A program made the position numbers and the translations under genes. The notes under the pieces are model-generated. The model ran no database searches and was not told where the DNA came from. It saw only the letters and a program-made list of their open reading frames with translations. A stretch of DNA of 64,000 bases from Bolinopsis microptera (lineage: Eukaryota > Ctenophora > Tentaculata > Lobata > Bolinopsidae): NCBI RefSeq assembly GCF_026151205.1, contig NC_087074.1, positions 12,009,182 through 12,073,181 of the forward strand. The letters are read 5' to 3'. Below are positions 23,554 through 63,232 of this stretch, piece after piece. Numbering within the stretch: the stretch's first letter is position 1; each line of letters starts with the position of its first letter.

Positions 23554-23693
<140 letters not shown>

Positions 23694-34200: not shown

Positions 34201-37200
34201 AGGTATTTATTTTCAGTACGTGGTTTAAATATGTTGAAATATGTAACTATTTACTCAGCTGCATCCTTCACAGAACATGCTAAATAAATGAATTTGTTAA
34301 ATAAATCGGTAAATAAACCAATTTGATCAGTTTTTAAAGTAAGTTAAATAAAAATGCTTCAAATCGAAGTCTGGCAATATGGAATTCCTAAGCTTTGCCA
34401 AGGGTGGCAATTTTTAATTTAATTGTGGCCTCTTGAGTACCATGGGTTTTTGGCATCACTTAGAGTTAGACGAAGTAATGATACCACAGATCTTACATTC
34501 TGTTAGTCCCAATCATGGTAATATGTCGGGTTAATTAACGTGACTAAGGTATTTTGTACGCGGTCGATCACTTTTGAAGATGGCGCATCGGTTTGGGGCT
34601 ACATATTTCGGAATATTCTATGGTTTCAGCGCTCAAAATGGGATCGGAACCCTTGGTTCCTGATTTGATTTAGTGTTAAAGTTGCAATTACCTTTTAATT
34701 TCCTTTCAATGTCTCGTCGACAACATTTAATCCAAATAAATTCAGCTCAGCTACTCTGATCATTTTTAATGGGATTTAAAGAGTCATGCAACGATATATA
34801 TCATTATGTAACTACGATAATTTCTCGACATTTATGAAATTCCGAAATGCCGTAAATAGTGTCCGTCACGGGAACTTATAGCAACTTTCCGATCAAGTTG
34901 ATCATTATTTTAAAGTAGGTTCCTCGATAAATAGTTTGCAATTTTGTGTCGTGTATTCGTAGTAAATTTTGTTGTGCAGCCCTAATGCTGGTGTAGTAAC
35001 GTAATACTCTTTAAAAAATGTCTCATACATAATATCTGCGTGATGTTATCTATCTACTTTAGGGAAAAACGCATGGAAAATGTTGAATCATGAGGCTACT
35101 GATGCGGATTGATCTCTTATTGATAGTACTGCTGTTAGTGTTTTACTCTCTTACTGCTTTTTACATTTCTCTTCCACAGATAGAACTGGATTGTGGCTAT
35201 TAATAATGAAATATTTCTCGCTGTTTCCTGGACGGAAAATATAGCAAATTATGTGCTGATGATGCATTTTTTGCTTTTCTAACGTGATGAGTTGTTGTTG
35301 TATTTCTTACTCAGTACCGAGAAAGTAGGTGTCTCACCGACCTATTTTAGAGTAGGTGTCTCACCGACCTATTTTAGAGTAGGTGTCTCACCGACCTATT
35401 TCATGGGGAGGCCATACTGTTCTGCACTTGCATGCAAATCTTTGCAAATCTTTGCAAAAAAATCAAAGATTACTAAACCCAGAAAGTGCTATCTAAGTAT
35501 TTACAAGAGTCGGCAAATAAATTCCTACTTAAGACTAAGTGCATATACAAGTAACTAAGTAGAAGTAATTATACCCAGGATAATACAGGCCCAGCCGGCC
35601 TTGCAGTAACCAGCAGTGAAATTCCCACGGTACGTGCATACTCCACCAAAACGGTGAAGTGCCCCTGAACTTATATCCTTATTCGTGTAGTGAAACCCTT
35701 TTCAGTACCCCGTCGGTGACACACGAGCGTAACGCAGGGAAATGTACCGACAACAGCTGCAAGATGGGCGAGTGTCGACAAGTAGCAGATGGCATTAGAA
35801 TGTGCATGTAAGTTTGAATATTTCGATTGATTAAATATTTCTGGTGACTTGACAGACTTAAAACCATGGACCAAGTCTTAGTCCATGGTTTTTCACCAAG
35901 TCATATCTTTTCCCAAGAAATAGATATTTCGACATTCCCGCAGTAATTGTTTGAAGTTTTGGTATACGGTTTACAATTGTCCTTATGAAATGCCATTGCC
36001 ACGAGAACTCCCTTAATATATAGTTAGTATTTATAGTTGGTGGTTGAAAACAAAGAAATCAGGCCTCTCACAGATCTTTATGCTATTATTTCGTCTTAAC
36101 CGAGTGAAAATTCCTAAAATAATATGCAAGTTGATTTTGTTAAGGTAAATTGATCTTAGAAATGCATTATTGGAGTCTTAGTAAGTTTATTCATATTAAA
36201 TTGTCATTGTCAGGAGCAACTCCTTCAAATTCAATATAATTTATAATTTGGTGGTTGAAAATAAGGACCTCAGCGCCTCCGTCTCGCAAATCGTTGCTCT
36301 ATTATTTTACTTTTACTATAAATATAAATACCTCCGGAAAAATATTTAAGTTGATTTTGTTAAGATTTATGTTAGAAATGAACTTTTAGCTTTTCTGGAC
36401 ATTATAATTCCACAAGTTAATACTGCAACCGCTGAATTTCGATACCAATATATAGCTATAGTCTGATCACTTCAGTTTTTCAGACACAAAATTAGGTTGA
36501 TAATTACCCCGTACCACCATTTCCTGAGTTTTTCTCGCTTAAAATCCAGTATTTCCCTGAGCACTTGAGTCCAATGGTTTAGAATGCTGTAATTAGATAA
36601 TGAAATGCTCGCCACCTCATCACAGTATTTGAATATTCAAACCACACGTCCCGGCCACCTCATGGCACGCCTAGTGAGAATATTAATTAGTATTAGAATT
36701 TGATAATTTTACGTCACCGATCAATATAATTATAATCAGACCTTCTCTCCCACAGCTGCATGCGAGGATATGTTGGTCACCGTTGCTCCGAACTAATGGT
36801 CAACCTTGCCGACTACGTAGAGGCACACCCCGGTAAGTTCAAGTAGAGTAATCAGTAATGTAGCTTACATGAACCCAAATATGGTCACAATCTGACATAC
36901 ACCTCTTTTTTGAAGTAGCCAGACGCGTGCTGAGAAAACAGGTCATCATTCTGCCAGGCAGTGTGCCAGGCACTTGGCAGTGAAAACTCTCTAATATTCA
37001 TTAATCTTATCTGGCATCAGCCGATTGTCGCCCCTGTCAACGTGCATTGTCTCTAAGCGTGCCCCTTCTTCATTAATCGGAATTCTGTGCCTTACACGCA
37101 TCACGCTGAAGACTAACTTTTTAGCTGTCGGGGTATGATAAGAATGCCCTCATTATTATCGCTCAATGACTTGTGTAATGAAGATAATTCTTAGAATATG

Positions 37201-43686: not shown

Positions 43687-43844
43687 TTAATCATCTTGAC
43701 TAAGTAAGTCGTTCAGATCAAGTGGTCGAGCGGTGAGGTTCATCACATCCGCTACAATACTTTTAGCTTGAGCCACAGCATCCTCTTCGCTTATTTCTTC
43801 TTTACCGAAGAGTTTCAGAACGGATTTCCTAATTTTCTCGGATC
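43687..43844 (-). CDS. AKAP10: AKAP10 last exon: PKA-binding helix
   Basis: Acceptor GTCCGTAG|GA (minus strand) and stop TAA at 43689-43687. It starts in phase 1, completing a Gly codon, and reads GSEKIRKSVLKLFGKEEIS then the helix EEDAVAQAKSIVADVMNL and the tail ARPLDLNDLLSQDD. The hydrophobic spacing (A,V,A,I,V,V,M,L) is that of an RI/RII-anchoring amphipathic helix. An in-frame ATG in the acceptor region (MSVGSEK) is read as intronic. Confidence 0.85.
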
Positions 43845-46800
43845 CTACGGACATTTTGGGGTTTAAAAGTTGAATTAATCAATATAACTTATAAGTAATT
43901 GATATAACTTACAAGTATTAAGTAGACATGTTAAATAGTGACAAAGTTGTAGTAATGCTGCTAAAGTAGTAAGAACTCCATGGTTATTAAATTACAATAA
44001 CATACAAAGTACTGGCAACTGACAATAGGTAGATTTATGCAGGAAGTAAAGAAGTAGTAGTTTGTTATAGCCACAAATGCGATTATTTACTAGGTATGGG
44101 GTCTATTGTATGGGCACAATAGTTCTCCTGGGTACATTCCAGAAACTTTGGCAAACTTAAAGCCGCACCTTTAGGGTGGGGGAGCTGACTCACCTTTAGG
44201 CGGAGAACTAAGTAAATGTTTGTTCTGACTCACCTTTAGGCGGAGAACTAAGTAAATGTTTGTCCTGGCTCACCTTTAGGCAGAGAACTAAGTAAATGTT
44301 TGTCCTGACTCACCTTGAGGAGGAGAACTAAGTAAATGTTTGTCCTGACTCACCTTGAGGCGGAGAACTAGGTAAATGTTTGTCCTGACTCACCTTGAGG
44401 CGGGGAACTGAGTAAATGTTTGTCCTGGCTAACCTTGAGGCGGGGAACTGAGTAAATGTTTGTCCTGGCTCACCTTGAGGCGGAGAACTGAGTAAATGTT
44501 TGTCCTTGCTCACCTTTAGGCGGAGAACTAAGTAAATGTTTGTTCTGACTCACCTTTAGGAGGAGAACTAAGTAAATGTTTGTCCTGGCTCACCTTGAGG
44601 CGGGAAACTAAGTAAATGTTTGTCCTGGCTCACCTTTAGGCGGAGAACTAAGTAAATGTTTGTTCTGACTCACCTTTAGGAGGAGAACTAAGTAAATGTT
44701 TGTTTAATTGTCCTGGCTCACCTTGAGGCGGGGAACTAAGTAAATGTTTGTCCTGGCTCACCTTGAGGAGGAGAACTAAGTAAATGTTTGTCCTGGCTCA
44801 CCTTGAGGCGGGGAACTGAGTAAATGTTTGTCCTGGCTCGAGTACACGCCCCACTCGTCAACTTCGCTCATCGTGTAGTCCGTGTCGGGAATGGTCCAAA
44901 ACTTTGAGTCGTCCAGCAGGTCTTCGGTGTTACCGTCGTTGGAAGCAACATCCGGATCTGGGGAATGATGATATAATGTAAATTTTAAAACTGTGGGGTC
45001 AAAAAATGATTAAAATTAACACCTATTGACAGCTGATGAGTTTTATCTATAAAGTTATCAACGCCATTAACGACAGTGATTTTCTCATGAGCTACTTCAT
45101 GACTCTTTATGATTATAATAGCTGTTACAGCAGATCAAAGTAATGCATAACAGCGTTCAATCAACATCTTGTCACTCGTTGGTACTAAGATAATTTATTT
45201 TAAAATGCGTAAAAATCACAACACTGGATCACAACGCTCAAGACAGTTATTTTTACATTTTAGGCGTTACCCAGCTGTGCGACGTACGCTCCTCGCTCGA
45301 CAGTATTTGGACATTTTAAAACTGAGTAGTCTTTAAATCTTCAAAAATCGTGCGGATTAGTCGTGCTTTATCATTACAATGCTAATGATGACCACGGTTG
45401 CATTTCTAGCAGCCCTCTAATAGCCATTTCGGCGCTTATCTGTCGGGCATTGTATTTTCCCGACACAAAGTGTATTGAAGTGGTTAGTTATAGAGTTAGG
45501 GCCAATTTACTTTTCAAGATTCGACCAAACCGTCGACCATGAGTGAGGAACAAACTCGTCATCTGGCACAGTCGAAAGTAAAATTATGTGTACCCACATC
45601 TCTTGAACAACAATTTCACGAGACCTCATAACATAAACTAGATCTTTACTCCTTTTTTCTTCTGAACTTGAAGAAATTAATATCTTACAGACGATCTTCT
45701 ACAATAGGAAACTAATTTAATTAACGATAAATTTGTATCTCGTTTGAATATTCCTGTTTTCTTAGATTAACAAGTCTAGGATCAAACGAAGAGATGAAGC
45801 ACAGCCCCTAACACCTCCCCAGAACCGGCTCCCTCAGACGTCTTGAAGTTCTCACTTTTTAAGAAACTCGCTGGGAGTTGGGTACGTGATTTTTAGAGAG
45901 GAGACACTACCACGTCGTGAGCCCGGACAACGGAGTATCTTTAAATGTTTGTCGAACGAGCACAATTCATATTAAAATTGAAGACTGGATCTCTTACTAT
46001 TATGAGATGAGGGTCAACATGAACCCTAGTGGGCGTTACATTCCTGGACCGCATTGTGTTCATTTACCATCACAGTTTACCTGACACCTACCGTCTAAGC
46101 GCAATACGCGTCAGAACAAGATCGGGCTACTAACCTGGGATACTGCCAGGACAATTTCCATCCGGTCAAGATTCAAGGCCTCAGCGAATTTTCAAAAGGA
46201 AGACCGGCCCAGTCCTATTTGTTGGCCCCTTACTTTTTTATTCTATACATATTACATATCCTATAACTATATTTTCCCGGATATTCTCTTATATCCTCTG
46301 AGAACACAACTGTGCCACTGTCACAGCAACATTTTAGACACCCTTCTAACCGTGAAACCTATCCTTCCCAAGAAAATGGAAAAATTCCTACCAAAAGCTC
46401 CTACCAATCCCCTTGCGTACATTAAGAGAAGTCTTATTATAGACCACATAGTGACCTTACAAGAACGATTTCATGGCTCCGGCCTAAAAACAATTACAGT
46501 GAAACTTCGAACTCCTCGCAGGTATTTGGCATGATTCGACCAAACTGATTCGACACGTATTGTAGTTCGACAAACCCTAAAATTCGACTCAGTTGAACTA
46601 GAGGACGCTATCTGGACGTACCGAAGTTTACAAGAGAACTGTGACTGAGTGAAAGGGAAATTCATAAAGATAAGGGGGCTGTCTCATCGTCTTCTGGTTG
46701 ATCTGTCAGGTCTTGCTCCATCTTCAAGACATCGATGAAGCGCCAAATGGTAGGATTACTGCAGCCCATGAGACACCGAAAGCCGTTGTGCCATCTAGGT

Positions 46801-49800
46801 AGGTATTGGCCGTGTCTCGCCAAGTTCCGCCAGAGGGCCTACTTGTGATGGAAGAAACATTCTGTCTTGGTGGAAGTAGGCCAGGTACTTCGACAGGGTT
46901 AATGAGGGCTTACTCGTAATCATTATTGGGGTTCTCTTTCAAAGCTGGCGATCTCTGCTTCGACCAGAAATGAAGGTAATAGTAGAGGGCATCAATATGT
47001 TCACAAGCAGAAAATATTTGTCGTGTTAAAGTATGCTACCTGGACTCTAGTTCGACACGTACCGAAGTTCGACAAAGTTGATTTAGCTGTCGAACTCGAG
47101 TACGTGTCGAACTCGAGTACGTGATTCGTCAAGTTGACTTCAATGAAATGACAATATTTTCAGAAAGATTTGGGCCGAAATAAGATGTTTTCAACATTAT
47201 TATCGACAGGTGTAACTAGATGGACTGTAATATCACTGATTGTTGATTACTTTATTGATAAATAGTACTGGATAACACAGGATTTGGCAACCACTCTCAC
47301 ACCACTCCGTTATATATCAGATCAATTTGTATCCAATTCATCGCATGATTATGACCAAAATGTGTGTCAGGAAAACATTTTTACATAATGTTAAAACTCC
47401 AGACACTCACCTTCAACTGAAGATTTTGGCACCGTTTCGTTTTTCCTTTTGAAACTCTGCGGACTGGAAGTTTTAGAACTGAAAGGAGAAGACTTATGCG
47501 AGGAGGTTGGCGTCTGTTCTCCTGGTAAACTGCTCCCGACATCGCGAGCCTTGACGTCCAGTCTAGGTGACTTTGTCACGGAGTCAGGCGAGGGACTTGA
47601 CAGAGATCTTGGTGCGGCAGCTGGCGTGGGGCTTCCCACGGACATTGCACCAATCTTGGTAATAATTTCTCGATTGGATGCTCTGGGCACTGAAACAAAG
47701 TTTGTTGTTAATCAAAGGAGTTTGAATCCTTGCAAATTATGATACCATACATTGATTATTGAACCACCATACCTTGGTTAACATGGGACATAACTTAAAC
47801 AAATACCAAATTGGCAAGGGCGTCGACAAAAAGAAGCCAAATCATTAGTCTTAGTAGGGTTAGAGTAGGACAATTAGTTCTGCAAAATAAAACTATGTCT
47901 TTAACTGAGAAATTACAGACGTATCTTCTTCAGATTTTACTCGCTCCGTCACGCCAAGATGATATTTAATGTGCCAAACGATATGTGTGCGAACTTTGTA
48001 TACTACCGTTTCTAATCAGGCTTCATTTTCAGATGGTGTTACTATATTTAATCTTCAAGACGTGCTCTCGCTAAAGGACGTGGACGATGCGCGAAAGAAA
48101 GTGATTTTTTTTTAAATGTATCACGAAGTTATACTTGAGTAAACTTAAGAGTTAGGCCGTACAGCCGATAACAATGATTCAACATAAATGAACTATTTCA
48201 AACCCATTCAGCCACCGTTATCAAAGGGTATTATAAAATGTCATAATCATAATTTACCAGCCATCCCTAGACACGGCAGATAGACAATGAGGTACGTCTA
48301 TGCCCCGAAGCCGAAAACAGGAATTCGCAATAAATGAACCATTTTCTGATTTTCAGTGACATTTAACAAAGGGCATTATTAAACCTTATATGTTATCAAT
48401 TTATCACTTCTACTTAGACATGGCGAAAAGACATCGAAGACCGTCTATAACCCCACAGACAAAGCATAACCAGCACATATAAAAGTCATAGACGGTTGTG
48501 ATACGTAACAACGGGGCCCTTTTAATATAATATCTTTGTCACAGTCACCGTTTTAAAGGATACTCATTACTTATAAAACTTTTAAAAGCTTTAATAATTC
48601 TGACATTAGTTGAGTTAGGGCTTTTTATGCCGACCTTAAATTATTTACTTCAGATAATAAAATTACTGCTACGCTATTAATTTATAGGTTTATTTTTTAT
48701 TATTACTAAATTTCATGAAACTACTATATTACGCGTACGCCATTAACTTTAATAGCGTTTGTTTATTGTTTAACTCAATGTTACCTTTTAACTTAATATT
48801 TTAACCTAAAGCCTCATGAGGGGTATGACTAGATATTATTAAATTTTTATCTGTTTCAAAGATCACAGCTTTTGGATGTCACCAAAAGGCTTAAATCACG
48901 ACAATTTTTAAACTTTATCAATTCCGAAGAATGAAAATTATAACTATGTATTCTCTAACGCCTACATTTTTGGATATCTAGATTCGTGCTACCCAACTCG
49001 GCGCCCTGAAACTGGGAGGCGCTCTACTTTTGTTAACCTTGGCAACCCCGCCTACCCTAACATCGGTATTTCATATGTTATTCCAACTGTTTCCGACTTT
49101 TAGACCCAGCGGAGCTTACTCAACCCTCATAAAAGCACGATTAACCTTGAGCCCTCGTTTCTTCCATTCGCATGGTCAAACACATCTGCGTTCCAAACGT
49201 GACTATGATCATCAGGGGGCCTTTGTTATAAAGAACGAAGCCACAGCTAGATCTATTGTGGCCCTCAGGTACGGGGGGAGTATTCACATCTCTAACCTGT
49301 AAAGCTGTAGTTTTGATGCACCAAATAATAAATAACAATATGTCTGTCAAAATTGTTTCGTTTAACAATTAGTGCCCACTGCAGCTTTGTAGTAAGATAT
49401 TTGCCAGGGTACCAATGGGTTATGACTTTCACTAAGGAGGAATTGATTAAAACTTGTAGAAGTGATTTTACGTGACCTTATTTGTAATTGTGGAAGTGCT
49501 TGTATGTTTTTACGGCATCAATACGAACACTTCTTCACATTTGATCACATCCATCGCTACAAACAGTTCTAAAAATATGCATCGCGCCGAATTATATATA
49601 TATAAGATGACTTTATAAAGGCTACCTTCCTCCTTACAAATGCCCTCTTGTTCATTCAAACGTTTTAAGAACAGGTTAAGGCCAGGGGGGGGGGGAGGGG
49701 TTAAAAGTCGATTTTCCAGTTTTTACATATTTGATGTTTTTTTTTTGGAGACGAACAAGAAGAAAAAAACCGGACCGAAATCTGACCTTGCGTTTTTAAG

Positions 49801-52800
49801 ATATCGCGCGCCAATTATTGAGGTTTACATGTAATTACATGTAAAACTTTAACTTTAACTGTAAAAAGTTAAAACGTCCTAAGTTGAGAAGACTGTTAAC
49901 AAAATGGCAAAATGTGATTTTTGAGATTTTTTCAATTTGTTAACCTCTTATTTCAAGAACAAAGGCAAAAATCAAAATTCTAAAACATAAGGTTTTTTGC
50001 GCAAGGAACACCTGTGCCAAGTTTCAGCTTCTGTGTGTGGCAAGTCTTCTCAACTTAGGACGTTTTAACTTTTTACAGTTTAAGTTAAAGTTTTACATGT
50101 AATTACATGTAAACCTCAATATTTGGTGCGCGATATCTTAAAAACGCAAGGTCAGATTTCGGTCCGGTTTTTTCTTCTTGTTCGTCTCCAGCAGCTCTGA
50201 TCGAATATGTAAAAACTGGAAAATCGACTTTTACCCCCCCCCCCCCTCTGGCCTTAAGGTACTTATATCGACCTATGCTCAGTACAAAGAGGCATTATTC
50301 ACTAGGCGACTAGTACCATTCAATGGGACTAGTCCTCAGCTCCGCTAGTTGTTCTGCGGCACGAGGCTGTTGCCGGGCACCGGCAGAAATGGCGTAATCC
50401 TTTCATCAACATTGTTGATTCAACATGGGTGAAAGCTATAAGATACTTTGCTAAAAGGATAATATGTTTCAGTAGAGATATAATTTTGAGGGCGGACAAT
50501 CGTCTCTTTAACAGCTTTGTATCAGCTCCGAAATCATGCTAGACACAATAACGGTCAAGTATCTGGAATCCGGACTGCTTCATCAAGTTACCATTGAAAC
50601 AGGCAGGGCTACTGCACCACTGAACTTTTGATGCATTCGAAAAGGTGGGAACCCTTTTCGTCGTAGCCTCCTCTGATTTCCATTCTTGGCCAGCAACAAA
50701 TACAAAACAGACAGGCCACCGCTGGAAAAAGTGAAGGTCGTGAGGTTACAACGTGGCTCTGTCACGATGGAATAGAAATCGGGGCAGGATGTAGTCTGCT
50801 TCAGTTTGTGTCCATTTCTGCGACAGAAGGAATAACGATGTATAATGTGAGGTTCAAACATGAGCATTGCCTCAAAATGATACAAGGGAGCTACTAGCTT
50901 TGGTCCTGCGAGTAGAGTTTTAATTTTTAGAGGTTTCTGGGCCGATATTCCTGGCTGTGACCACGTCGAGACCTCAACAGAGGTTCTAAATAAGCCTCAT
51001 TAAAGAGCGTAATAAGTACTGCTACCAATATAATCGTTTCTTATTTTTAATGATTGCATTATTTTCCGGAAGCGCACTGCTGGAAAATGTAGCTCTTTTT
51101 TCATTTTTGAGCTATTTTCTGGCTACAAACTATTTAGACTGCCTATCTTTATGAAGAACACGATCATCAGTTTATATAAGAAATATAGACAACAATAACG
51201 ATAAATATAAGTATCAATATTTACAATATTAAATTACGGATATAGATGCACCCGATTTTCAGGAGACAAATTCTGCAGAAAAACCGCATTCTATAATCTA
51301 TTGAGGGACCGCGTACTTTAGGAGTAGCTCGGTCAGAGAGGGCTTGAGGGTCAGGGAGTGTGTGGGGGAGTGGCTCAGTAGCAGCGTGTTAGATCAGGGA
51401 GTGTGTGGGGGAGTGGCTCAGTAGCAGTGTGTTAGACCAGGGAGTGTGTGGGGGAGTGGCTCAGTAGCAGTGTGTTAGACCAGGGAGTGTGTGGGGGAGT
51501 GGCTCAGTAGAGTGTGTTAGATCAGGGAGTGTGTGGGGGAGTGGCTCAGTAGCAGTGTGTTAGATCAGGGGAGTGTGTGGGGGAGTGGCTAAATATTTCT
51601 ATACGGTAATTGCCGGATATGAATAACCAAAACATGGTAGGAATTTGTTTTGCAGCAGATCTCTTTGATCTTTCAATAAGGCTGAAATATAAAATAGCCA
51701 GACACAGCAACCATAAACTCGTCAGATCGAATCACAAGCCGAAAGCCAGTTTCGAATCTAGGTCTGTTCTTTATATTAGTAAAGACAACGGAAAATCATA
51801 CAGCGTGCAATTCGATCAAACTTCTGAATTTTTATTTTTGCTAATAAGTTGCGAGTCGAATTCCATTCCTTGAAGATTGTTCCTTATTCCACGAAATTAC
51901 TTTTGTAAGAGGGAGGGGTTTGGAAAAGCTTAATGAGTTTCTACAAAATAGCTATGTGAAAAGTGGCATACAGCGATGAGAGCTAGAGGGAGGTCTAAAA
52001 AGGTCAAAATCTGGCCTACTCAATATTTTAACGGTCCCTAAATCCAAGGTATTGTTCCTCGATCTGCTGTGGAGCATGTTGAATACCTGACATCTGGAAG
52101 AGATGATGCAGACCTCTAGAATTAGTTAACAGAACAGAGAGAAGAGGGTCTGAAATGTATGCAGACTGCAGAGCATTGTTCTGATTGACATTAAAAGATA
52201 CTCGTTAGCTTTGACAATGAATTTTTCGGCCATACTTGCGCCAGAAAGAGTTAAGCTGCCGTTGAATCGGTCACCGACAAAGCAGGAATGCAACTCACTA
52301 TGGCGTCGATCATATCCAGCAAAGAAATTAATTGTGGTCTGATAACGATTTCAAAATTGATTGCAGAGATCAAGGAGAGATCGTGCCTTGTAGTTAGAAA
52401 AAACAATACTTGGTGAGAAAGAAGACGACCTTTACGAAATACGGGCTTTGAGCAGTTCTAGGCCAATCTTTCTGCAATTCTCTATCTTTGTCGCCCGATT
52501 TTTTATGTTCACAGGAAACTATTCAACTGGAGTCTGGTCACTTACTTTGTTACTTTGTAGGGCTTCATAGAATCCTCTATCGGGCCATCGAAAAAGTCGA
52601 CCCCCCGGACAGTGTAGAAACTGTTTTATCACCACTCCAATCAAGCAAGGAGTTTCCATTCCGACGGCTGTATCCTGGAGCTGGAGGCTCGTCCGGAAAT
52701 GACTTCACAAAGTTCGTTAAAGCTACTTTGAATTGCATAGGATCCTCGATGGTGTGCATATGTGTTGGGATTACATTCCATAATCGAGGTCCAGTGACTG

Positions 52801-55800
52801 CAAATGAGTTGTCATGTAGTGCTTGATTACGTTGACTGCTGGACTTAGCTATACTGGGCACAACTGCTTTTTGACCATGTCTGAGAGTCGCCGAGAACTG
52901 GATACCAATATCATTAGGGCACTTGCAATGCAGAACTTTCCACATGTTGATGATTAAATACCGTTCTCTTCTTCTTTGCAATGACATCAGATCTAGGGCC
53001 TTTAATCGCAGTTATTATTCGCCAGAAATCGGGCCTCTATCTTCTTAGAACAAAGTTTAACCGCCGAAATTGTGCAACTAAAAACATGTATTGGATAGCA
53101 TCTGAAGTTGAAACAGGTGATTAAATATGGATGATCGACTCTAAAATTTTGAGCATTGTACGACGTTTATACCCAGTTCCAATGGTCCTAACTCTCCACG
53201 CTATTAGACTAAAAGTTGGGATACCAAAATATAAGCCACCTTTCACCAGGCTCAAAGGTCTCGGTGTGACACAGTCTTTGGTCTACAGCCACCTAGTATA
53301 ATGCACAAAGGACGTCCAATATTTGTAGGTGGCTTATAGATTATATGCGGTCATGATCAAATGAAAATTTCATGGATCACATGACAATCAAACCCAAAGA
53401 GGCTACAGTTGCAGGTAGGTAGTCTAAATCAGTCACGATAGAATAGTTCGGCTCGGAAAAGTAGGCTCACATCAAGCTTTGAGAAGGGTTCAAGGAAAAG
53501 AGGATTACATTAGAACGTCAAAACAAACAATTTTTTGTACGATGCAAGGACAGTTGTCAGCTCTGTCAATCTGTCATATTTTTATTTGTTTGCCTAACGA
53601 AATAGTACAACGTTTATGTTTTTGCAAACAACGCATAGCCTGCTTCGTTACCGTTTTTGAGAACCTTATATTTACAAGCGGGTACAATCATTTGCATTTG
53701 GACGATTTTTAACTTAGTGTGTACAATTTTGCATTTAGGATATACCAAGTATTCCCATCAATAGGGACAGAATTAACATCGGAAATTCGGATCATATATA
53801 CGATTTATTTCCTTCTACGTGTATGAAATACCCATTCCGAAAATACCGCTGTATTGACTTATAAAAGGATGACGCCGGTACACCTAAATGAAAATACCTG
53901 ATTGAATCACTCACGACTAATCCTTTTGTGGACCGATAATGCTAGTCACGTAGCTCACAGCTATCAAACTAAGGAAGTGCCAACTTGCGCCGCCTAAATG
54001 TCACATTTCAATCTCAAGAGAATAGCCTAATTCTTTTTACGGCTGGAGACATCCTTTCTATCTATATTCTATAAGCTCATTTTCCACAAGATACTGTTTA
54101 TGCAAGAGTACCTGAGTACATTGAATTTCTATGTTAGTAAAAAAATGAGGGATAATTTCATTTCATTTCAATGAGGGATAAATTAACTTTCATTTCATGG
54201 AAGTTGGGGGATCATCTTGGAGTTGGAGAGCGTCCAGAGGTGGTTTACCCGTCTGATTGACGAGGTGGGTACTCTTCCATACAGTCGTCGACTGGAAATC
54301 CTCAATTTAACAACGCTGGCAGAGCGGCGAAAATTAACTTTCATTTCATGACTGCATGGGGTGAGACAGGTTCGTACCCACTACTGATCGAAGTATTAAA
54401 ACTAAGTGTCAAATACTTCAAAAGGATAATGTGTCTTCCATCGTCTCAACTGGTGAAGGCTGCTATGACTGAGCAAGTAAACTTGCATCTTTCGTGGTAC
54501 TCTGGAATAGAAAACATCATCAAGTGCTTTAACAACATTGATCCTAGAACATATGCAAGGAACTCTTCGCTTTTACTCAATGCAACTGCGTTTGCAGACG
54601 CTTGCAGTCCAGACGAGCTGGTTAATAACTTTCAAAAGCTGTTTACAGACTCCTGGAGATCAAAGATTAACGAGAGCAGGAAACTCACTTTCTACAAGGA
54701 CGTCAAAACAGTCTTTGCATGGGAGCCTTACCTAGATTATGCACGAACTCTCGATGACAGAAGATCAACAGCTCAAATAAGGTGCAGTTCTCACAGACTC
54801 AGCATAGAAATTGGGAGATACGAAAACACACCTCTAGAGAGCAGAACTTGCACCTTTTGTGAACTGAAAGGATCAACCGGGATCATAGAGGATGAAACAC
54901 ACTTTCTCACTTCCTGCCCACAAGGGAAGGCTATCAGAGACAAGTTTACCAGAGCTAGTGAAAGCTTGGGAAACAGCAATGACAACGGACTGACCAACAT
55001 TGTCAACACTCTCTCTCGTACCCAAGATCTTTACGGTAACCTTAACGAGCAGGATGTGAACTTGATTAGACTTTCATGCTCAACCATCAGAGAAATGTAC
55101 AGTCTGAACCTCAAGCACAAAGACAGCCTTCGTGATGAAGATGGAAAGTAGTCCTTCAGCTCTTTTTTGCTTTTCTCGTTCTTCCTTTCCTTCTCCTCTT
55201 GCTTTGGATCTGTGACGGATGCTATGAGCGACTCTTGGGACTTTCCGTCCCTACATGGGCTTCCGGCCGTGCGTCCATGTAGGAACTGTGGGGCCTTCAG
55301 AGTGATAGGGTTACAATGGTTGTCAGTACAGCAATGGATCGCTCCATTGGCCCGACCTCCGAGACGGGGTATCCGAGAGGACCCTGGTCGTGACCAGCTC
55401 TGCACCAAAAGGTGTATTCTGGCGCCTGAAATCTTGGACCGTAGTCTGCGTACGGGGTAGACTGCCACGGACGATTATGTTACATGGGCCGCTCACTGCA
55501 TTCTGATTTTAGCCAGACCTCAGCAGGTGGTTTGTCTCCACTCTTGTTTCTTTTTTTCTTGTCCCCCTGCATCCTGTCCTTCCCCTTTGCTTCCCCCTCT
55601 TTCAGTCTTCATCTTCAGCATCAGCCTCATCAGTTTTAGTATTCAGAGCCACTTGCTCCTACAACCGTACCTTACTGGCTCACTGCATTTGGCCCAAACG
55701 GCATTTTAATTATCCGTTTTTTAACTTGCTTACTGTGCATTTCACTTTTTTGCCCTAGCGACTAGCGCGCGTTCGTGTTCCCGAGCCTGTCCTCTTATTC

Positions 55801-58800
55801 TCTCAGAACACCTCGGGTACACTTGTTCGTCCAAGTACCTAGTGGTAGACACTTTGACAGTCATCACACTGTTATGGATTTGGCACAGTTGACATGAAAA
55901 CTTTTTCTTATCAGTCATTATCATGTCACCCATCACAACATTTTGAACTTCGATAGTACCTCACATGAATTTATCGACAGTTAACTCTATTTCACTACGA
56001 CATACTTAACTTTGTCACACAGTATCATATTTTCATTAGACACCTACATTTTGAGAATCATTTAATTTTCGAATGGAATTTTACCGAATTAAAACCGAGT
56101 GTGTGTGTTTGAGCGATTTGTACAACATTTCTGTAATGTTTCAAATTATATTCAAATGTTCTAAAAAAATGTTTCATGGAAGTTGGGGGTCATCTTGGAG
56201 CTGGAGAGCGTCCAGAGGCGGTTTACCCGTCTGATTGACGAGGTGGGTACTCTTCCATACAGTCGTCGACTGGAAATCCTCAATTTAACAACGCTGGCAG
56301 AGCGTCGAATACGTGGGGACCTCATTGAATCTTTTAAAATGATAAGTGGTTTGGTCAATTACGGAGCTGGTTTGTTCAGTATGAGCAGATCTGGTCTTAA
56401 TGTGGTATCAAACAGTAGATGCAGTAAAAGTAGCAGTAGAATGAAGAAAGTCCACAGTTCTTTTCTTCCGGAGAGGGTGAGACCATATTGGAACAAACTC
56501 CCCTCGGATGTCAAGAATTGTGGGACAGTGTTAAGTTTTAAAATAAGATTAGAGGCTTTCAAAAAAGAGACTATTTTAAACGGATCTGTAAATGATAGTC
56601 ATTTTTGGTATGTTTCGGACGAAGTATTAGGAAAGATTGAGGGATTAAATTATGCTACTAATAAAGAGAAGCACAATGAATATCTTATGTGTAATCCTCA
56701 TGTTGCTAAAAAACGCTTTATCAACTTATATAGTAGTGGAAAGTATGTAAATTAGATTCATTTCAACTTGGTTGTTTAGGCCAATAGATTTTAGATAATT
56801 TTTAAACTTTAGTAGATATATTTTTGATGATGTGTGATGATGTTTGTGTCATTTTATTTTGATTTATGACTTGATTTTATTTAATAATTCGATAATGAGA
56901 AGCGGAAATTGACAGGACGCACTTTAGATTCATATATAGTGACTAGTTAAATTGTATTAATATAATAAATGCAAGGAATTATTTCAGTTTGGTTCAGTGT
57001 ACGAGATCGGTCATGTAATTAATTGAGTCATTTAATAATGATGTAATTAATGCTGGCCACGCGCGCGCGACCGGCAGTAGCTCGTAAATGAACACGATAA
57101 ATTAGATAAATAAATAAATAAAATTAAATTAAATTAAATAATATAAATACGCGCATGCATGAACGACTTAAGCAATGAAAACTTTAGACGGAATAATAGT
57201 TATCGCGCGTTCCTACAAGTGACATAAAGGGTTTGTTTTCTTTTGGGGCACTTTGGACCAGACGTCCTGTTTAACCAGATCACGATGATGCAATCTTCTA
57301 GAAAATATAACCTCGATCGCAATCCAATCTACATGAAAAGACGGAAACAGGAGGAACCTCGTAAAACTAAAATGGCGTTCAGAATTCTCGTTTGAGTGCG
57401 TAACTCACACTTAAATAGTTATGCAATATCTAATCGAATTGACAAGCACTACATTGAAGGCAAGGAATACATTATATCAGTTAATGGAAAGTAAACAAAC
57501 CGTTCGAATTGCTCTTTATATTGAACTCTTCTTTTCTTCGAGTTTCCAGAGCCGTGGTCAGTTCCTTTTTATATCTTTTCAGCTGGTCACTTTTGGTGTA
57601 AGCTTCGAAGAAAAACTGAAAATTGATACTCAATAACGAGGTGCACGGGACATTGGGAACCGTGTTTGTATTTAATATAATTAGGACCACTTCCAGCACA
57701 TGTTAGAACAATGTAGGATATGCAAGTGTACGTTACCAAGTATTACTGTAAATATAATACACATGCTCTGATACATTTAATTGTACAATATCCTGTTAGC
57801 AAGATAACTGTGATCCAGGATCATAGGGAAATATTATCTAATATCTACGGAAACAGGACACTGATTGAGAGATGAACCATGTTTGCTTTGACACGTGCAG
57901 TAATTCTGGGAGCTAACTGGTGAATTGCTATCACGTGTCAAAAACATTTGTAGAACAAGTTGTTCAAAGTCTAGTTCAGCTCCACGCCAGTATCCAGATG
58001 TTTTACATTAACAATATCATCTATTACAACGAACCTTATCCATGTAATGATAACAGTATTGTTGTGCTATCATGAACGCGTCAGGTGTAATAATACCATC
58101 GTCTGGAGATATACTGCTCTCCACAATACCTCGTATTATACGACCGTAGTTAACTGGTTTTCTGGCCTGGTGAGGTTTAAGTTAGTGTGATAAGTTAGTT
58201 AATGTTGTTGTGTAAAACTTCAAAATCTAAACAAACTCGTCTCAAGGGATCATGACACATCTGCCAAAAAGAATAAAAAACTAAATTAGAAGTTAATTAA
58301 TAATAATAACCTGTAAAGAGAGGTAAGTTTCATAGAGCGCAATAGCATCATCTCCCACATCCTCCATCTTACACCCTCCCTCCGTCCCACTCCGCCTCAA
58401 ATGCTCCTGGAATGCCTCTACAGAAACCCAAAACAGCACATGGTTCTCATGACTCTTCTGTTCCAGATACTCCATGAAGTGTGTTATACTTTCTTCACAC
58501 AGCAGTATATCTGCTAAACACACATTCTTGCGCAGCACCTCCAGCTGGTACGCCGCGCAGTATGAAGATCTGCGGAATTTAGGTACGAAAGATTCTCCTA
58601 AAACGTGTCTCACGTGATTTACTGCAGCGTCAAAACATCTGTAATCTATACTGCCATCCTCTGTAGATATCTGGTTCTCAACACCAATCCTGATGTTTTC
58701 AGGCAGGGCTATGGGGTGCGGCGCGTTCATTGAGATGAACTTCACGTAGATGTCAAGCGCATCGTTTTGCAGGCTTGATTTAATGGTTTGGGTAGGGCTG

Positions 58801-59505
58801 TTGGGAAACGAGAAACCTGAGTTTGGGATGTCTTTGTTGGCGATCTCTCTGAATGAATCACACGCGAAGAGGAAGTGCAGTAACCGTATACTTTTACAGT
58901 ACTCTAGATACTGAAAGATTATGCATTTATAGTAATAGTATATATATTTATAGTAATAATATGTATTTATAGTATTATTTAGTCTACTTTTCATAAGTTA
59001 GATAACTTACATAATAATTGAGTGTATTTAAATAGCGTGTATTCGTAGAGTGCTAAGATGTACATTCTACAGGATTCTTTAACAATATATATGTCGGTTA
59101 GATTCATACCACTGAACTGTTAAGATACATTACTATATAACTACATTTGTTAAGATACATTACTATGTTACTACATTGTGAGGTTACTAAAGTGATCAAT
59201 ATCATATTACAGTGCACTATTAAAGTCTATTTATACATATGTACTATAAAAAGTTACAAGATACGGCACATGAAAACACGTACAAACTTCATTGAGACTC
59301 ACAAAGTTACTACTAACGTTAAGTTAACTTGTCCCCACCTGTATAAAATAAGGTAAGCAGTGCAGAGCACTGAGACACTCAGTCAGGCGAGGTTTGAGGT
59401 TTGAGGCAGGAGGGTAGGGTGCGGCAGACACGTGGATCTGTTTAGCTGACATTGGCTGCGGATCAAGTTCACTGAAGGAGGGTGCTTGGATACATTCCTC
59501 TGGCA
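43687..59505 (-). CDS. AKAP10: A-kinase anchoring protein 10 (D-AKAP2) orthologue, 5'-partial
   Basis: Seven exons join in phase: 59505-59339, 58910-58311, 58166-58035, 57615-57501, 47689-47411, 44957-44802, 43844-43687. They give 534 residues plus stop. AKAP10 tethers PKA regulatory subunits and carries two RGS-homology domains. Here LPYFIQ followed by YLEYCKSIRLLHFLFACDSF opens the first RGS domain. ADILLCEESITHFMEYLEQK opens the second, which continues through the next two exons to SDQLKRYKKEL. A Ser/Pro-rich linker follows. The last exon has EEDAVAQAKSIVADVMNL, matching the family's PKA-binding amphipathic helix (EELAxxIAKxIVxDIM). The human protein is 662 residues, so the N-terminus lies beyond the window. 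The C-terminus ends LLSQDD, not the vertebrate PDZ-binding TKL. Possible extra exons between 57501 and 47689 cannot be excluded, although the phases join directly. Confidence 0.9.
44187..44839 (-). repeat. 40-bp minisatellite, 16 units, each carrying a 5' splice-donor sequence
   Basis: On the minus strand the unit is AGGACAAACATTTACTTAGT then TCTCCGCCTAAAGGTGAGTC. The array begins inside the AKAP10 penultimate exon and runs about 600 bp into its last intron. All 16 units hold (A/C)AAG|GT at the same place. Fifteen read GTGAGT or GTGAGC and one (near 44432) reads GTTAGC. One unit has a 7-bp insertion (around 44701-44707). Units differ by a few substitutions, so the array is not a trivial assembly duplication. 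The donor that keeps the frame is the first one, between 44802 and 44801. Confidence 0.93.
44802..44957 (-). CDS. AKAP10: AKAP10 penultimate exon
   Basis: Acceptor TTCCCCAG|AT and donor CAAG|GTGAGC. It starts and ends in phase 1. It encodes an acidic segment (DLLDDSKFWTIPDTDYTMSEVDEWGVYS) that aligns loosely with the AKAP10 region just before the PKA-binding helix. Its last 12 or so codons (QDKHLLSSPPQ) are the first unit of the adjoining minisatellite, so repeat sequence has become coding. Confidence 0.85.
44958..47410 (-). other. AKAP10 intron
   Basis: 2.45 kb, AT-rich. The stretch 46500-47130 contains scattered CGAACTCGAGTACGTG/TTCGACA-type repeats. I see no transposon protein or further exon. 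Confidence 0.6.
47411..47689 (-). CDS. AKAP10: AKAP10 exon: Ser/Pro-rich linker
   Basis: Acceptor TTTGTTTCAG|TG and donor GAAG|GTGAGT, 279 bp, phase 1 at both ends. It encodes a low-complexity Ser/Pro/Lys-rich region (PRSLSSPSPDS, SSHKSSPFSSKTSSP) with many SP and TP sites that could be phosphorylated. It matches in position the variable linker between the second RGS domain and the C-terminal helix. Confidence 0.82.
49680..50253. mobile_element. TTAA-flanked foldback MITE, 574 bp
   Basis: Two arms of about 215-220 bp are inverted copies. The left begins GGCCAG and a G tract, then AAAGTCGATTTTCCAGTTTT; the right mirrors it and ends CTGGCC. Both ends are bordered by TTAA (49676-49679 and 50254-50257), the target duplication of piggyBac and Kolobok elements. 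The arms differ at several sites and near the G/C tract. The interior (about 49895-50040) is short and has no transposase. It is a non-autonomous element of a TTAA-type superfamily. Confidence 0.85.
51351..51590 (+). repeat. 43-bp minisatellite with tRNA A-box-like unit, 5.6 copies
   Basis: Units start at 51351, 51394, 51437, 51480, 51522 and 51565. The consensus contains GGGGGAGTGGCTCAGTAGCA then GTGTGTTAGA, which resembles the D-arm/A-box half of a tRNA (TGGCTCAGTGGTAGCGTG). No B-box or full tRNA fold is present. It probably arose by tandem amplification of a tRNA-derived SINE head or a chance A-box. Confidence 0.85.
52577..52987 (-). pseudogene. LINE reverse-transcriptase ORF, C-terminal fragment
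   Basis: The frame reads SLQRRRERYLIINMWKVLHC, later SFAVTGPRLWNVIP and PDEPPAPGY, a signature of the post-RT C-terminus of CR1/L2/jockey-type non-LTR retrotransposons. The match continues upstream as RLKALDL and is then broken by a frameshift near 53010. The RT core and endonuclease are absent, as in a 5'-truncated insertion. It lies in an AKAP10 intron, in the same orientation as the gene. Confidence 0.85.
54200..54329 (+). mobile_element. 130-bp LINE fragment flanked by a 20-bp direct repeat
   Basis: The sequence from GAAGTTGGGGG to GGCAGAGCGGCG matches the start of the LINE remnant at 56177 with few differences. It is bordered by AAATTAACTTTCATTTCATG at 54180-54199 and again at 54331-54350. 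It lacks the LINE 3' end, which is unusual for target-primed insertion. Confidence 0.8.
54348..55151 (+). pseudogene. Non-LTR retrotransposon ORF, C-terminal fragment
   Basis: 267 open codons. The first part, WGETGSYPLLIEVLKLSVKYFKRI, and the later CTFCELKGSTGIIEDETHFLTSCP (split here as C-x2-C, then IEDETHFL, then C) are typical of the region after the RT in many invertebrate LINEs. That region ends with an HCCC-like Cys/His knuckle. The RT core upstream is missing. The frame stops at TAG and is followed by a T-rich 3' region. Confidence 0.85.
55152..55520 (+). mobile_element. Probable 3' UTR of the LINE fragment
   Basis: It starts with a pyrimidine-rich stretch (CTCTTTTTTGCTTTTCTCGT) after the ORF stop, then GC-richer sequence with CTCACTGCATTCTGATTTTAGCC at its end. 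This resembles a LINE tail and not a host gene. The 97-codon frame here has no domain. Confidence 0.5.
56171..56755 (+). pseudogene. CR1/L2-type LINE ORF2, C-terminal fragment
   Basis: From 56171 the frame reads LGVILELESVQRRFTRLI, then LTTLAERRIRGDLIESFKMI, and SFLPERVRPYWNKLP, the conserved C-terminal signature of CR1/L2-like reverse transcriptases. It ends at TAG (56753-56755). The RT core is absent, so this is a 5'-truncated copy. Its 5' edge (TTTCATGGAAGTTGGGG) coincides with that of the 130-bp fragment at 54200. An AT-rich tail follows. Confidence 0.88.
57501..57615 (-). CDS. AKAP10: AKAP10 exon: end of second RGS domain
   Basis: Acceptor CAATTTTCAG|TTT and donor AACG|GTTTGT. It starts in phase 0 and ends in phase 1. 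It encodes FFFEAYTKSDQLKRYKKELT and a charged tail (ETRRKEEFNIKSNSN), matching the last RGS helix of AKAP10 (FLxxFLxSxxYxKYLxxL). Confidence 0.85.
58035..58166 (-). CDS. AKAP10: AKAP10 exon: middle of second RGS domain
   Basis: Acceptor CCTCACCAG|GCC and donor AAG|GTTCGT, 132 bp, phase 0. It encodes ARKPVNYGRIIRGIVESSIS, then PDAFMIAQQYCYHYMDK, co-linear with the AKAP10 RGS segment following SLQ (IES-x-I, then the helix ending xxMEK). Confidence 0.9.
58311..58910 (-). CDS. AKAP10: AKAP10 exon: first RGS domain and start of second
   Basis: Acceptor AATCTTTCAG|TAT and donor CTTTACAG|GTTATT (a weak donor after the GT), 600 bp, phase 0. It encodes YLEYCKSIRLLHFLFACDSF, a linker, ALDIYVKFISMNAPHPIALP, then FVPKFRRSSYCAAYQLEVL closing RGS-A. 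RGS-B begins at ADILLCEESITHFMEYLEQK and continues with HVLFWVSVEAFQEHL. The open frame continues past 58910 into the Tyr-rich intron, which should not be taken as coding. Confidence 0.92.
59339..59505 (-). CDS. AKAP10: AKAP10 exon: start of first RGS domain
   Basis: Acceptor CCCCTCTCAG|TG and donor ATACAG|GTGGGG, 167 bp, starts in phase 1 and ends in phase 0. It encodes PEECIQAPSFSELDPQPMS, a low-complexity linker, and LTECLSALHCLPYFIQ, the conserved entry into the first RGS domain. A 3.69-kb transposon insertion begins 36 bp upstream of this acceptor. Confidence 0.85.
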
Positions 59506-59532
59506 CTGAGAGGGGGGAGGCGGTTATTGAGA

Positions 59533-59541: not shown

Positions 59542-60279
59542 TAGGGCCTGTCGTGATATCATGGATCGCTTAGGTTCCACCAGGATCTGGTAGTCCTCAT
59601 AATTCTGCGGCCTCTATGTGTCGTCATCTCGCACAACTCTTTAAGAATCTTGTGGATTTGGCATGTGAAAATTTGCAGCCTTCCAGACATAGATTGGGTT
59701 AACGAGGTGTCGTACGTCACCTCAAGATCGGGTGACAGGGGGCTGACCAGGCCAGAACCCAATTGATTGGGCCTGAGGTCACGTGATTATGAGCCTGAGG
59801 TCACGTGACTATGACGTCACCAGACCTTCCTCTCCGTTTCCCGCTCATTGGACCAGGTGAGCTTGCATGCATGTGAATGTGGGTGTAAGTATAGCTGTAC
59901 TGTAGTTTATACCTAATTAAACCCCTATAGAAACCGACAATTTATTTTCTGGCAGAAAGCTAGAAATTTACCAAAATATCGTCATTGTTTTAAATTTATT
60001 TTGATGACCATTCCTGACCTAAAATCGCACGAGAAATCGATTAAACTTGGTTTCAGAACTCAACAATGCTTCCTTATGCCTCAAAATCCATGTTTTATCG
60101 ATACAATCAACATATCGATCCTGTAGTTCAACTTATTACTTAAAGGGTTCAAGTATAGTTACGCGGTAGACAAACTAAAACAAAATTGTAGGTTTATAAC
60201 CTACCAGGACGTGTGCCGAGTTAAGCTCGAGTCGAAGGTAATATTTGGAACAAATATTTTACGAGTATCACCCGTTAAA
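59542..60279. repeat. Left terminal inverted repeat (738 bp)
   Basis: Inverse of 62495-63232, ending inward at CACCCGTTAAA. On the minus strand it carries a 67-codon open frame (59559-59762) beginning MGSGLVSPLSPDLEVTYD, identical to the one in the right repeat. It includes two tandem copies of GCCTGAGGTCACGTGA (about 59770-59807). Confidence 0.92.
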
Positions 60280-60481
60280 TAAACTTATATGTATAAAAAC
60301 CTTGTGTTATGTGGCAGTTGTATTGCAATTTGTGCAATTTCAGTTGGGCAGCTTTTTTAAAGTGTCTGTTATTTCAATTTTCGTAAACCTACTACCTGGG
60401 AATGTAATGAAATAAAAAGGTGACCATCTTTGGTTATTACTAGCACTTTGCAAATCCAGCAGATCTACTTTCGTAATCTCA

Positions 60482-61377
60482 AGATTACGCAACCTACATC
60501 CTAGATGGCCTCAACTTTACGGACAACCTAAGATACACAAACCCGGCGCACCTATCCGTCCCGTAGTCAGCTTCTACAACACCCCCCTCCAAGCCCTCCA
60601 CAAAGTCCTCGCATCTTTCCTCAAACCCCTAGCCCAGAACCCCTTACGCCTCAAAGACTCTTCCGACTTCAAACATCGCTTCGACTCCTCTCTCAATCCC
60701 TCCTTCCACTACCACGCCTCCTTAGACGTCCAATCCTTGTACACCTCCTGTGACATGCGCCTAGCCCTCAAAACTGTCATCTCCTCCTTTGAACAGAACC
60801 CCTCTCGTCTTCCCTCCAATTTCACCACCACCACCATAGGCTCCCTTATCAACTTTTGCCTTGACAACTCATACTTTGAATTCAACGGCTCCTTCTACTC
60901 CCAAGACGAAGGTGGTACAATGGGATCCCCCCTCATTGTTGAACTAGCTGAAATCCGCCTTGCTGAAATCGAGACCTTAGCTTTATCCTCATGTCCTGAC
61001 CCTCCGAACACTTACTCCCATTTCGTTGACGACGGCCTTGGATCTGTTACAGACTCAACAACGCCATCGACGAATCCACAGACAGAATCAAATCAGCCCC
61101 TGCACATCATGCCCTGACCACCGGCCACACCATCTCCTGGAACAACATCGAAGTCCTCAAATCCCTCACCTCACGCTCCCAACTTGACCTCACAGAACAC
61201 GCAGCTATACAAATACGACAACCAGCTATGAACAGAACAGACCGCGCACCCAAATGTAGTTCCCTCTGGGACCCCATTCTTCCTAAAATTGCCAAATCCT
61301 TAAAGACTAAATTTTTATTGACATTGTACTGTAATTTTCACTTTCCCACCCACACCTCCCCCACCCTCCATCCCTGA
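60482..61377 (+). pseudogene. Penelope-like element: RT fragment joined to C-terminal GIY-YIG endonuclease
   Basis: One frame (to 61117) reads PQLYGQPKIHKPGAPIRPVV, LDVQSLYT, FNGSFYSQDEGGTMGSPL and HFVDDGL, the ordered RT motifs of Penelope-like elements. After VDDGL the homology jumps to another frame (61042-61377). That frame reads SAPAHHALTTGHTISWNN, then PAMNRTD and SSLWDPIL, the C-terminal half of the PLE GIY-YIG endonuclease. The RT thumb and the GIY-YIG core are missing, so an internal deletion of several hundred bases with a frame change has occurred. The N-terminal RT part is absent too. It is a dead copy carried inside the TIR element, C-rich on this strand unlike its surroundings. 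Confidence 0.88.
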
Positions 61378-62059: not shown

Positions 62060-62494
62060 AGGTACAATAAATCAGATATATTGTATTTCCTAAGTGGCTC
62101 ACAAGTAGGAGCTCATCTATTATTTCTTGTATTGTCACAAAAAACGTCTGTAGCTTAACTTAATTTCAGATCACATCATTATAATGGATTATAAATAATG
62201 CTAAACATTAGCCATATTAAGTGAAGAGTATTATGTAGGCTTTTAACAACCATATAATGCTTTATATCCCACACCCAAGTAACAGAAATGCAATTGATTT
62301 TAACCTGTCGACAATATTTCAGAAAAGATTCCCGCAAGCAAGCATGTTCCTTCGTTCTGCTCTGATCTCTACTCTGTTACTAACTGATGATGGACTTTGA
62401 TACGATTCGTTGATATGATTTTTTGACGTATTGTATACAGCTAACACTTAACCATATGGTTCAGACAAAAGGACAATTAAACTGGTGTTTTGTT

Positions 62495-63232
62495 TTTAAC
62501 GGGTGATACTCGTAAAATATTTGTTCCAAATATTACCTTCGACTCGAGCTTAACTCGGCACACGTCCTGGTAGGTTATAAACCTACAATTTTGTTTTAGT
62601 TTGTCTACCGCGTAACTATACTTGAACCCTTTAAGTAATAAGTTGAACTACAGGATCGATATGTTGATTGTATCGATAAAACATGGATTTTGAGGCATAA
62701 GGAAGCATTGTTGAGTTCTGAAACCAAGTTTAATCGATTTCTCGTGCGATTTTAGGTCAGGAATGGTCATCAAAATAAATTTAAAACAATGACGATATTT
62801 TGGTAAATTTCTAGCTTTCTGCCAGAAAATAAATTGTCGGTTTCTATAGGGGTTTAATTAGGTATAAACTACAGTACAGCTATACTTACACCCACATTCA
62901 CATGCATGCAAGCTCACCTGGTCCAATGAGCGGGAAACGGAGAGGAAGGTCTGGTGACGTCATAGTCACGTGACCTCAGGCTCATAATCACGTGACCTCA
63001 GGCCCAATCAATTGGGTTCTGGCCTGGTCAGCCCCCTGTCACCCGATCTTGAGGTGACGTACGACACCTCGTTAACCCAATCTATGTCTGGAAGGCTGCA
63101 AATTTTCACATGCCAAATCCACAAGATTCTTAAAGAGTTGTGCGAGATGACGACACATAGAGGCCGCAGAATTATGAGGACTACCAGATCCTGGTGGAAC
63201 CTAAGCGATCCATGATATCACGACAGGCCCTA
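62495..63232. repeat. Right terminal inverted repeat (738 bp)
   Basis: Inverse of 59542-60279. It begins inward at TTTAACGGGTGATACTCG and ends CAGGCCCTA. The plus-strand frame 63012-63215 is the same 67-residue product as in the left repeat. Confidence 0.92.

Follow-up and report, generated by a model that had tools for sequence, protein, structure and literature searches.

Described donor repeats and the AKAP10 locus

Minisatellites that multiply a splice donor are already known from human genes. According to the available text of PMC5954066, the VNTR in intron 18 of human ABCA7 has a 25-bp unit present in 12 to ~427 copies, its first GT is the donor of exon 18, and every unit has the potential to serve as a donor. 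One-unit retention is observed there, out of frame and independent of VNTR size, whereas exon 19 is skipped more often with a larger VNTR (PMC5954066). The minisatellite of human IFI6 (6-16, G1P3) gives multiple splice donors (Turri et al. 1995, cited in PMC4526556), and the accessible part of PMC4526556 names the first and two downstream units as donors in use. Tandemly duplicated AGGT segments have also been described as a source of new introns, and the sections available of the same source cite a 24-bp AGGT repeat of fission yeasts with introns across copies (PMC4974935). In the open-licence literature on introns, repeats and genomes of ctenophores, Mnemiopsis and Bolinopsis, no title or abstract on the subject was found; PMC12221973, in its accessible part, was considered for a link between loop anchors and repeats, and none was taken up.

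The array described here is located at the end of the penultimate exon of AKAP10 in the ctenophore Bolinopsis microptera. Like the ABCA7 repeat, as far as the available text describes it, the array adjoins an exon, its first GT is taken as the donor of that exon, and retention of one unit shifts the frame. It differs from ABCA7, where both length variation and RNA were measured, in being known from sequence alone, and in that the next exon is the last one. The likeness to IFI6 lies in a minisatellite providing multiple donors; unlike in IFI6, for which the accessible account documents downstream use, every downstream AKAP10 donor would truncate the protein. The tandem AG|GT copies with an intron spanning several of them resemble the AGGT type of intron gain (available text of PMC4974935), but an intron seems to be present at this codon in a repeat-less relative (P0009), and thus the array apparently did not make the intron. 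The two human genes, and similarly built arrays on exon ends elsewhere in this genome, show that the array, called unusual in the initial annotation, is not a singular case. Newer are a possible class of exon-end donor arrays within one genome and an in-frame 54-nt duplication, apparently a different one, that covers this exon end in Mnemiopsis AKAP10.

AKAP10 is encoded on the minus strand of the window, the 64,000-nucleotide stretch of DNA that was analysed. Seven exons were modelled with consistent splice sites and phases, and together they form an open frame of 543 aa. The exon furthest upstream of those modelled (59339..59532) is followed by an exon with RGS homology in two stretches (58311..58910; Pfam RGS, 6.5e-19, in the reading frame 58293-58997), an exon with the second RGS region (58035..58166) and a further exon at 57501..57615; all four were placed by the gene model, and all but the exon at 58311..58910 also by alignment with relatives. 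Next come a linker exon (47411..47689), aligned with P0001, the penultimate exon of 156 nt (44802..44957), the 3' end of which is unit 1 of the array, and the last exon (43687..43844), which encodes the PKA-anchoring (AKB) helix and contains the stop codon. The closest protein is ACHWQZ_G005989 of Mnemiopsis leidyi (P0001), with 81% identity over 93%. The identification of the gene as AKAP10, proposed from the start, is borne out by the two RGS stretches, by alignment with AKAP10-like urchin proteins, and by a profile of six relatives (A2), two of them urchin proteins named AKAP10-like, which matches the D-AKAP2 anchoring peptides 3im4 (1.5e-05) and 2hwn (1.1e-04). When the single sequence of the last exon was compared with the PDB, no D-AKAP2 was found. 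A further minisatellite (43 bp x 5.6) is present at 51351-51590, within the AKAP10 intron 47689-57501.

The array and the product of each donor

TRF analysis of 44185..44839 (minus strand) revealed a minisatellite with a period of 40 bp, 16.2 copies and 90% matches, which overlaps the final ~38 nt of the penultimate exon. The units carry a donor at one fixed position, and 16 donors are thus in register, following 44802, 44762, 44722, 44674 and so on to 44194 at a spacing of 40 nt, with a 48-nt step (unit 4) as the single exception. The first donor (44796..44801) reads GTGAGC, as do eight of the 16 in total; GTGAGT is found at seven (units 4, 7, 11, 12, 13, 15 and 16) and GTTAGC at one (unit 10), so that the 15 further in-register donors (44188..44761) comprise seven GTGAGT, seven GTGAGC and one GTTAGC. 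A 17th, degenerate donor, AAAG|GTGCGG, follows 44169. The unit count rests on one assembly (264.65 Mb, 232 contigs), in which one place was found. Units 5, 8 and 16 are identical, and by their sequence this is to be read as a mark of recent exchange. Sixteen donors in register are far from chance, yet a single duplication spanning the donor, with subsequent multiplication, would account for them.

The multiplication of the penultimate-exon donor and the donor counts agree with the initial annotation, as does the rank it gave to GTGAGT. The predicted duplex with the U1 5' end has an energy of -10.7 kcal/mol for GTGAGT, -9.6 kcal/mol for the GTGAGC of the first donor and -5.6 kcal/mol for GTTAGC, and seven downstream donors therefore outdo the first one in predicted pairing. 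Predicted folding of the 16 donors does not favour the first either: the mean unpaired probability ranges from 0.24 to 0.43 and is 0.25 at the first donor. Structure that hides the downstream copies was accordingly rejected, as the first donor is predicted to be exposed no more than the others.

Joining of donor 1 to the acceptor at 43844 gives an open frame and the full 543-aa model, and with no other donor does the frame continue into the last exon. All 16 alternative junctions computed, from donors 2-17, give one identical 499-aa product, which ends after PPQ-GEPGQTFT at an in-frame stop in unit 2 (44776..44778, minus strand), eight codons on and before the last exon, and which is devoid of the PKA-anchoring helix. 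Since donors 2-17 share one truncation, the outcome is of an on/off kind and not a ladder of proteins: the ladder of competing donors that had been suggested is present as in-register sites, but it collapses to a single truncation at the protein level. The distance from the stop to the junction is 14 nt for donor 2, 54 nt for donor 3 and at least 102 nt for the others. From donor 3 onward the stop would thus precede the junction by more than 50 nt, and decay of the mRNA is to be expected.

The junction of donor 1 is also found in relatives. P0002, P0003 and P0005 read ..QG|S-D/E-K-I/L-K-K-S-V, exactly as predicted from joining donor 1 to the acceptor at 43844. All three look like spliced transcripts, because their coding sequences of 546, 550 and 305 aa are free of introns on contigs of 1886, 2695 and 923 bases, respectively. 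P0008 shows the donor 1 junction as well, but its sequence equals the end of P0002 and thus adds no further witness. P0004 stops short of the site in this comparison, and the junction could not be placed in the two urchin proteins because of their distance. By frame and homologues, the first unit probably supplies the authentic donor, and the exon end and acceptor first proposed appear to be correct.

Proposed origin and probable tolerance of the array

The array is probably a tolerated bystander, an exon-edge minisatellite at which the first donor wins. A tandem duplication would have linked the beginning of the intron itself (GTGAGTCAG) with an exonic word resembling it (CGAGCCAGG), whereby each copy would carry the final ~38 nt of the exon together with the donor, and later exchange would have multiplied the duplicated unit. 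Splicing would normally take the 5'-most donor, whether because this site emerges first during transcription and is paired at an early stage or because its use yields the shortest exon, and the 15 intronic copies would be removed with the intron and tolerated. Leakage to any copy would lead to the one product with a stop eight codons on and no anchoring helix, with mRNA decay expected from donor 3 on.

The exon copy starts TCGAGCCAGG and the intron past the last donor reads GTGAGTCAGC; the word common to both is GAG-Y-CAG, GAGCCAG at the exon breakpoint versus GAGTCAG in the intron. A shared AGTT is found at the array of DPH2, and the exon at array L037 itself holds GTGAGTCC. In AKAP10, DPH2 and L037 it is apparently the donor's own letters that supplied the similarity from which the duplication started, while no such shared breakpoint word was found at GNL2.

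The reading frame of relative P0009, taken from a short contig, contains the unit peptide once and continues as ACFHCFTH up to a stop, which means that no unit directly follows its donor. Its departure from the coding frame comes after the same codon, and creation of the intron by an AGGT repeat was rejected on the basis of this one relative. In the C-terminus of Mnemiopsis AKAP10 (P0001) the unit peptide occurs twice, VYKSQDKHLLSSPAQG-TC-VYKSQDKHLLSSPAQG, forming an 18-aa (54-nt) in-frame unit at the site of the array. The joining codons of P0001 permit GTACNTGY, which does not agree with the GTGAGY found in the unit of the window. The Mnemiopsis and window duplications therefore look independent, although an old common array with altered units is a conceivable alternative. 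P0001 is a database gene model.

Comparison of the units revealed no excess of conservation at the donor: the donor-containing segment ranks 14th among 40 circular windows. Similarly, three of the nine distinct exon-frame changes are synonymous (p = 0.27, or 0.69 against transitions), which is no enrichment in this test, from which unit 4 was omitted owing to its insertion. Selection on the units for the donor is supported by neither result, and the direct bearing on splicing ascribed to the array is weakened, the donor columns being no better conserved than the remainder of the unit. Six of the 36 TRF rows of the window have at least three copies and a period of at least 10, which scales to a rough neutral estimate of ~25,000 arrays per 264.65 Mb. 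Under the assumption of 100,000 introns and 40-bp units, about 1.5% of arrays would, as a rough estimate, straddle a donor by placement alone; no special attraction of arrays to donors is thus needed, and an excess is not demonstrated.

What needs explaining is then the tolerance, namely the reliable use of the first among many equal donors, for which transcription order or exon-length control would presumably suffice. Factors such as SRSF1 determine whether a proximal or a distal donor is chosen in human cells (PMC5585400, available text), and first-donor use is thus not a given. The reading of the array as a tolerated bystander is favoured by GNL2 and DPH2, which have arrays of the same build at which the frame demands the first donor. 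Against it stand the stronger U1 pairing of seven downstream donors, the folding that does not favour the first, and the extra unit contained in the annotated Mnemiopsis protein, as well as human ABCA7, in which, by the available account, one-unit retention does occur (PMC5954066).

The same pairing advantage would suit an array that acts as a dial, in which more or stronger downstream donors lead to more anchor-less or decayed AKAP10 mRNA and the number of units tunes PKA anchoring. The human systems point both ways: in the accessible text on ABCA7, one-unit retention exists and VNTR size alters splicing of the next exon, but unit retention itself is independent of VNTR size (PMC5954066), and IFI6 transcripts take two downstream units as donors (PMC4526556, available part). 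Such a dial is nevertheless unlikely, given the identical truncation from every downstream donor, the absence of excess conservation at the donors, and relative P0009, which has no unit after the corresponding donor.

It is highly improbable that the units are zero-length exons, a wrong donor being repaired by re-splicing of donor 1 to the AG of the unit concerned so that all paths lead to the same mRNA. Every unit does have a TTTAC branch-like word, a pyrimidine stretch and AAG|GTGAG, and the unit sequence GTGAGCCAGGACAAACATTTACTTAGTTCTCCTCCTCAAG can be set beside a true last acceptor that is poor in pyrimidines. AAG is, however, a weak acceptor, and the motif may be accidental, since in unit 1 these letters form part of the coding sequence. 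Growth of the exon by absorption of units into coding sequence, as suggested by the in-frame unit of P0001 and by an array with a 42-bp unit (L044) that is stop-free in the part fetched, is scarcely credible here, since the 40-bp AKAP10 unit shifts the frame and stops at once and P0001 is a database gene model.

Donor arrays at other exon ends of the genome

The genome was searched for patterns of three consecutive donors separated by 5–35 bases, the backwards pattern serving as the control. Triples of AAGGTRAG were found at 1077 + 642 places (110 + 56 backwards), those of AAGGTGAG at 288 + 142 (110 + 51 backwards) and those of CAGGTRAG at 607 + 873 (40 + 261 backwards); with gaps of 4–34, GTGAGC-led triples occurred at 130 + 31 places (23 + 0 backwards) and AAGGTAAGT triples at 181 + 101 (0 + 0 backwards), such places not being arrays and the counts being dominated by a few long arrays. 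Among the matches listed, the 5' flanks of 20 arrays, AKAP10 included, were inspected, neighbouring clusters being counted as one array of which only the first cluster was considered. An exon appears to end at the first unit in eight of these 20 (three firm and five probable), which is not a rate, as the arrays were taken in contig order rather than at random. No exon was found at the first unit in 11 arrays (L034, L035, L038–L042, L046, L048, L049 and L051), and L045 was placed in neither group. The pattern counts and the arrays at other exon ends led to rejection of the AKAP10 array as a singular case.

AKAP10, GNL2 and DPH2 are regarded as firm because in each of them the next exon could be located and is in frame when joined to the first donor. 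The array of GNL2 (nucleolar GTPase 2) has a 38-bp unit and extends over G000:C1:1104930-1111165 (L032 5931 to L033 2366), which corresponds to ~164 units by length; in its two ends, the only parts fetched, AAGGTAAGG is present at 73 of 76 AAGGT donors. The joined exons match nucleolar GTP-binding protein 2 (6lss) ungapped across the junction (1.1e-23), and read-through beyond donor 1 meets a stop 27 nt on. Upstream of the same exon lies an acceptor array (L032 5499-5838, 41 bp x 8), the last copy of which is the true acceptor. The first coding exon of DPH2 ends in a donor array (L036 2704-3087, 38 bp x 10), with the next exon downstream in frame; the joined exons match NCBIfam TIGR00322 (2.5e-29), and the first exon alone gave no match in Pfam or PDB.

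The probable cases are L037 (2702-3087, 23 bp), L043 (from 756, 32 bp), L044 (from 766, 42 bp), L047 (minus strand, 37 bp) and L050 (minus strand, ~38 bp), where an open frame reaches the first donor over 56, 44, 38 and 49 codons in the first four and over 72 codons from a likely acceptor in L050. Open length by itself says little: among the arrays at which no exon was found, L034 (antisense to a reading frame), L038 and L049 reach 56, 38 and 46 open codons. Pfam searches with the exons at L037, L044 and L047 gave no match, and the L043 exon gave a sub-threshold match only (0.017). An in-frame stop inside the first intronic unit was found in five of the six arrays read through (AKAP10, GNL2, DPH2, L037 and L043); in the sixth, L044, the part fetched contains none.

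It is possible, albeit tentatively so, that exon-edge minisatellites are recurrent in lobate ctenophores, with tens of genes carrying ~5 to >150 tandem near-identical donors (and some acceptors), and with the AKAP10 donor duplicated independently in two lineages. A strict rule that the first donor wins would then let arrays reach kilobases inside needed genes, and units would sometimes become coding sequence. Studies of how one 5' splice site is selected from equal rivals usually rely on constructs with a few sites, whereas a single genome here provides natural arrays with as many as ~164 near-identical donors at true exon ends, and in genes such as GNL2 and AKAP10 the reading frame states which donor must be used. 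Should RNA confirm that the first donor wins, transcription-order commitment or exon-length control would be favoured over free competition. The arrays also provide a non-human animal setting for the question raised by ABCA7, that is, the effect of long donor repeats on splicing.

Several other repeats were observed. A 54-bp repeat at G000:C3:5859946-5934229 has donor-like words in clusters across ~74 kb, the first of which (L051) is not at an exon end. In the window, the array at 35324-35401 contains a donor-like word, with no exon edge seen by eye, and a TAG microsatellite of 46.7 copies occupies 23554-23693. The regions 59557-60282 (plus strand) and 62477-63217 (minus strand) contain the same reading frames and form an inverted pair ~2.2 kb apart around a long frame (60416-61117), an arrangement that gives the impression of a mobile element.
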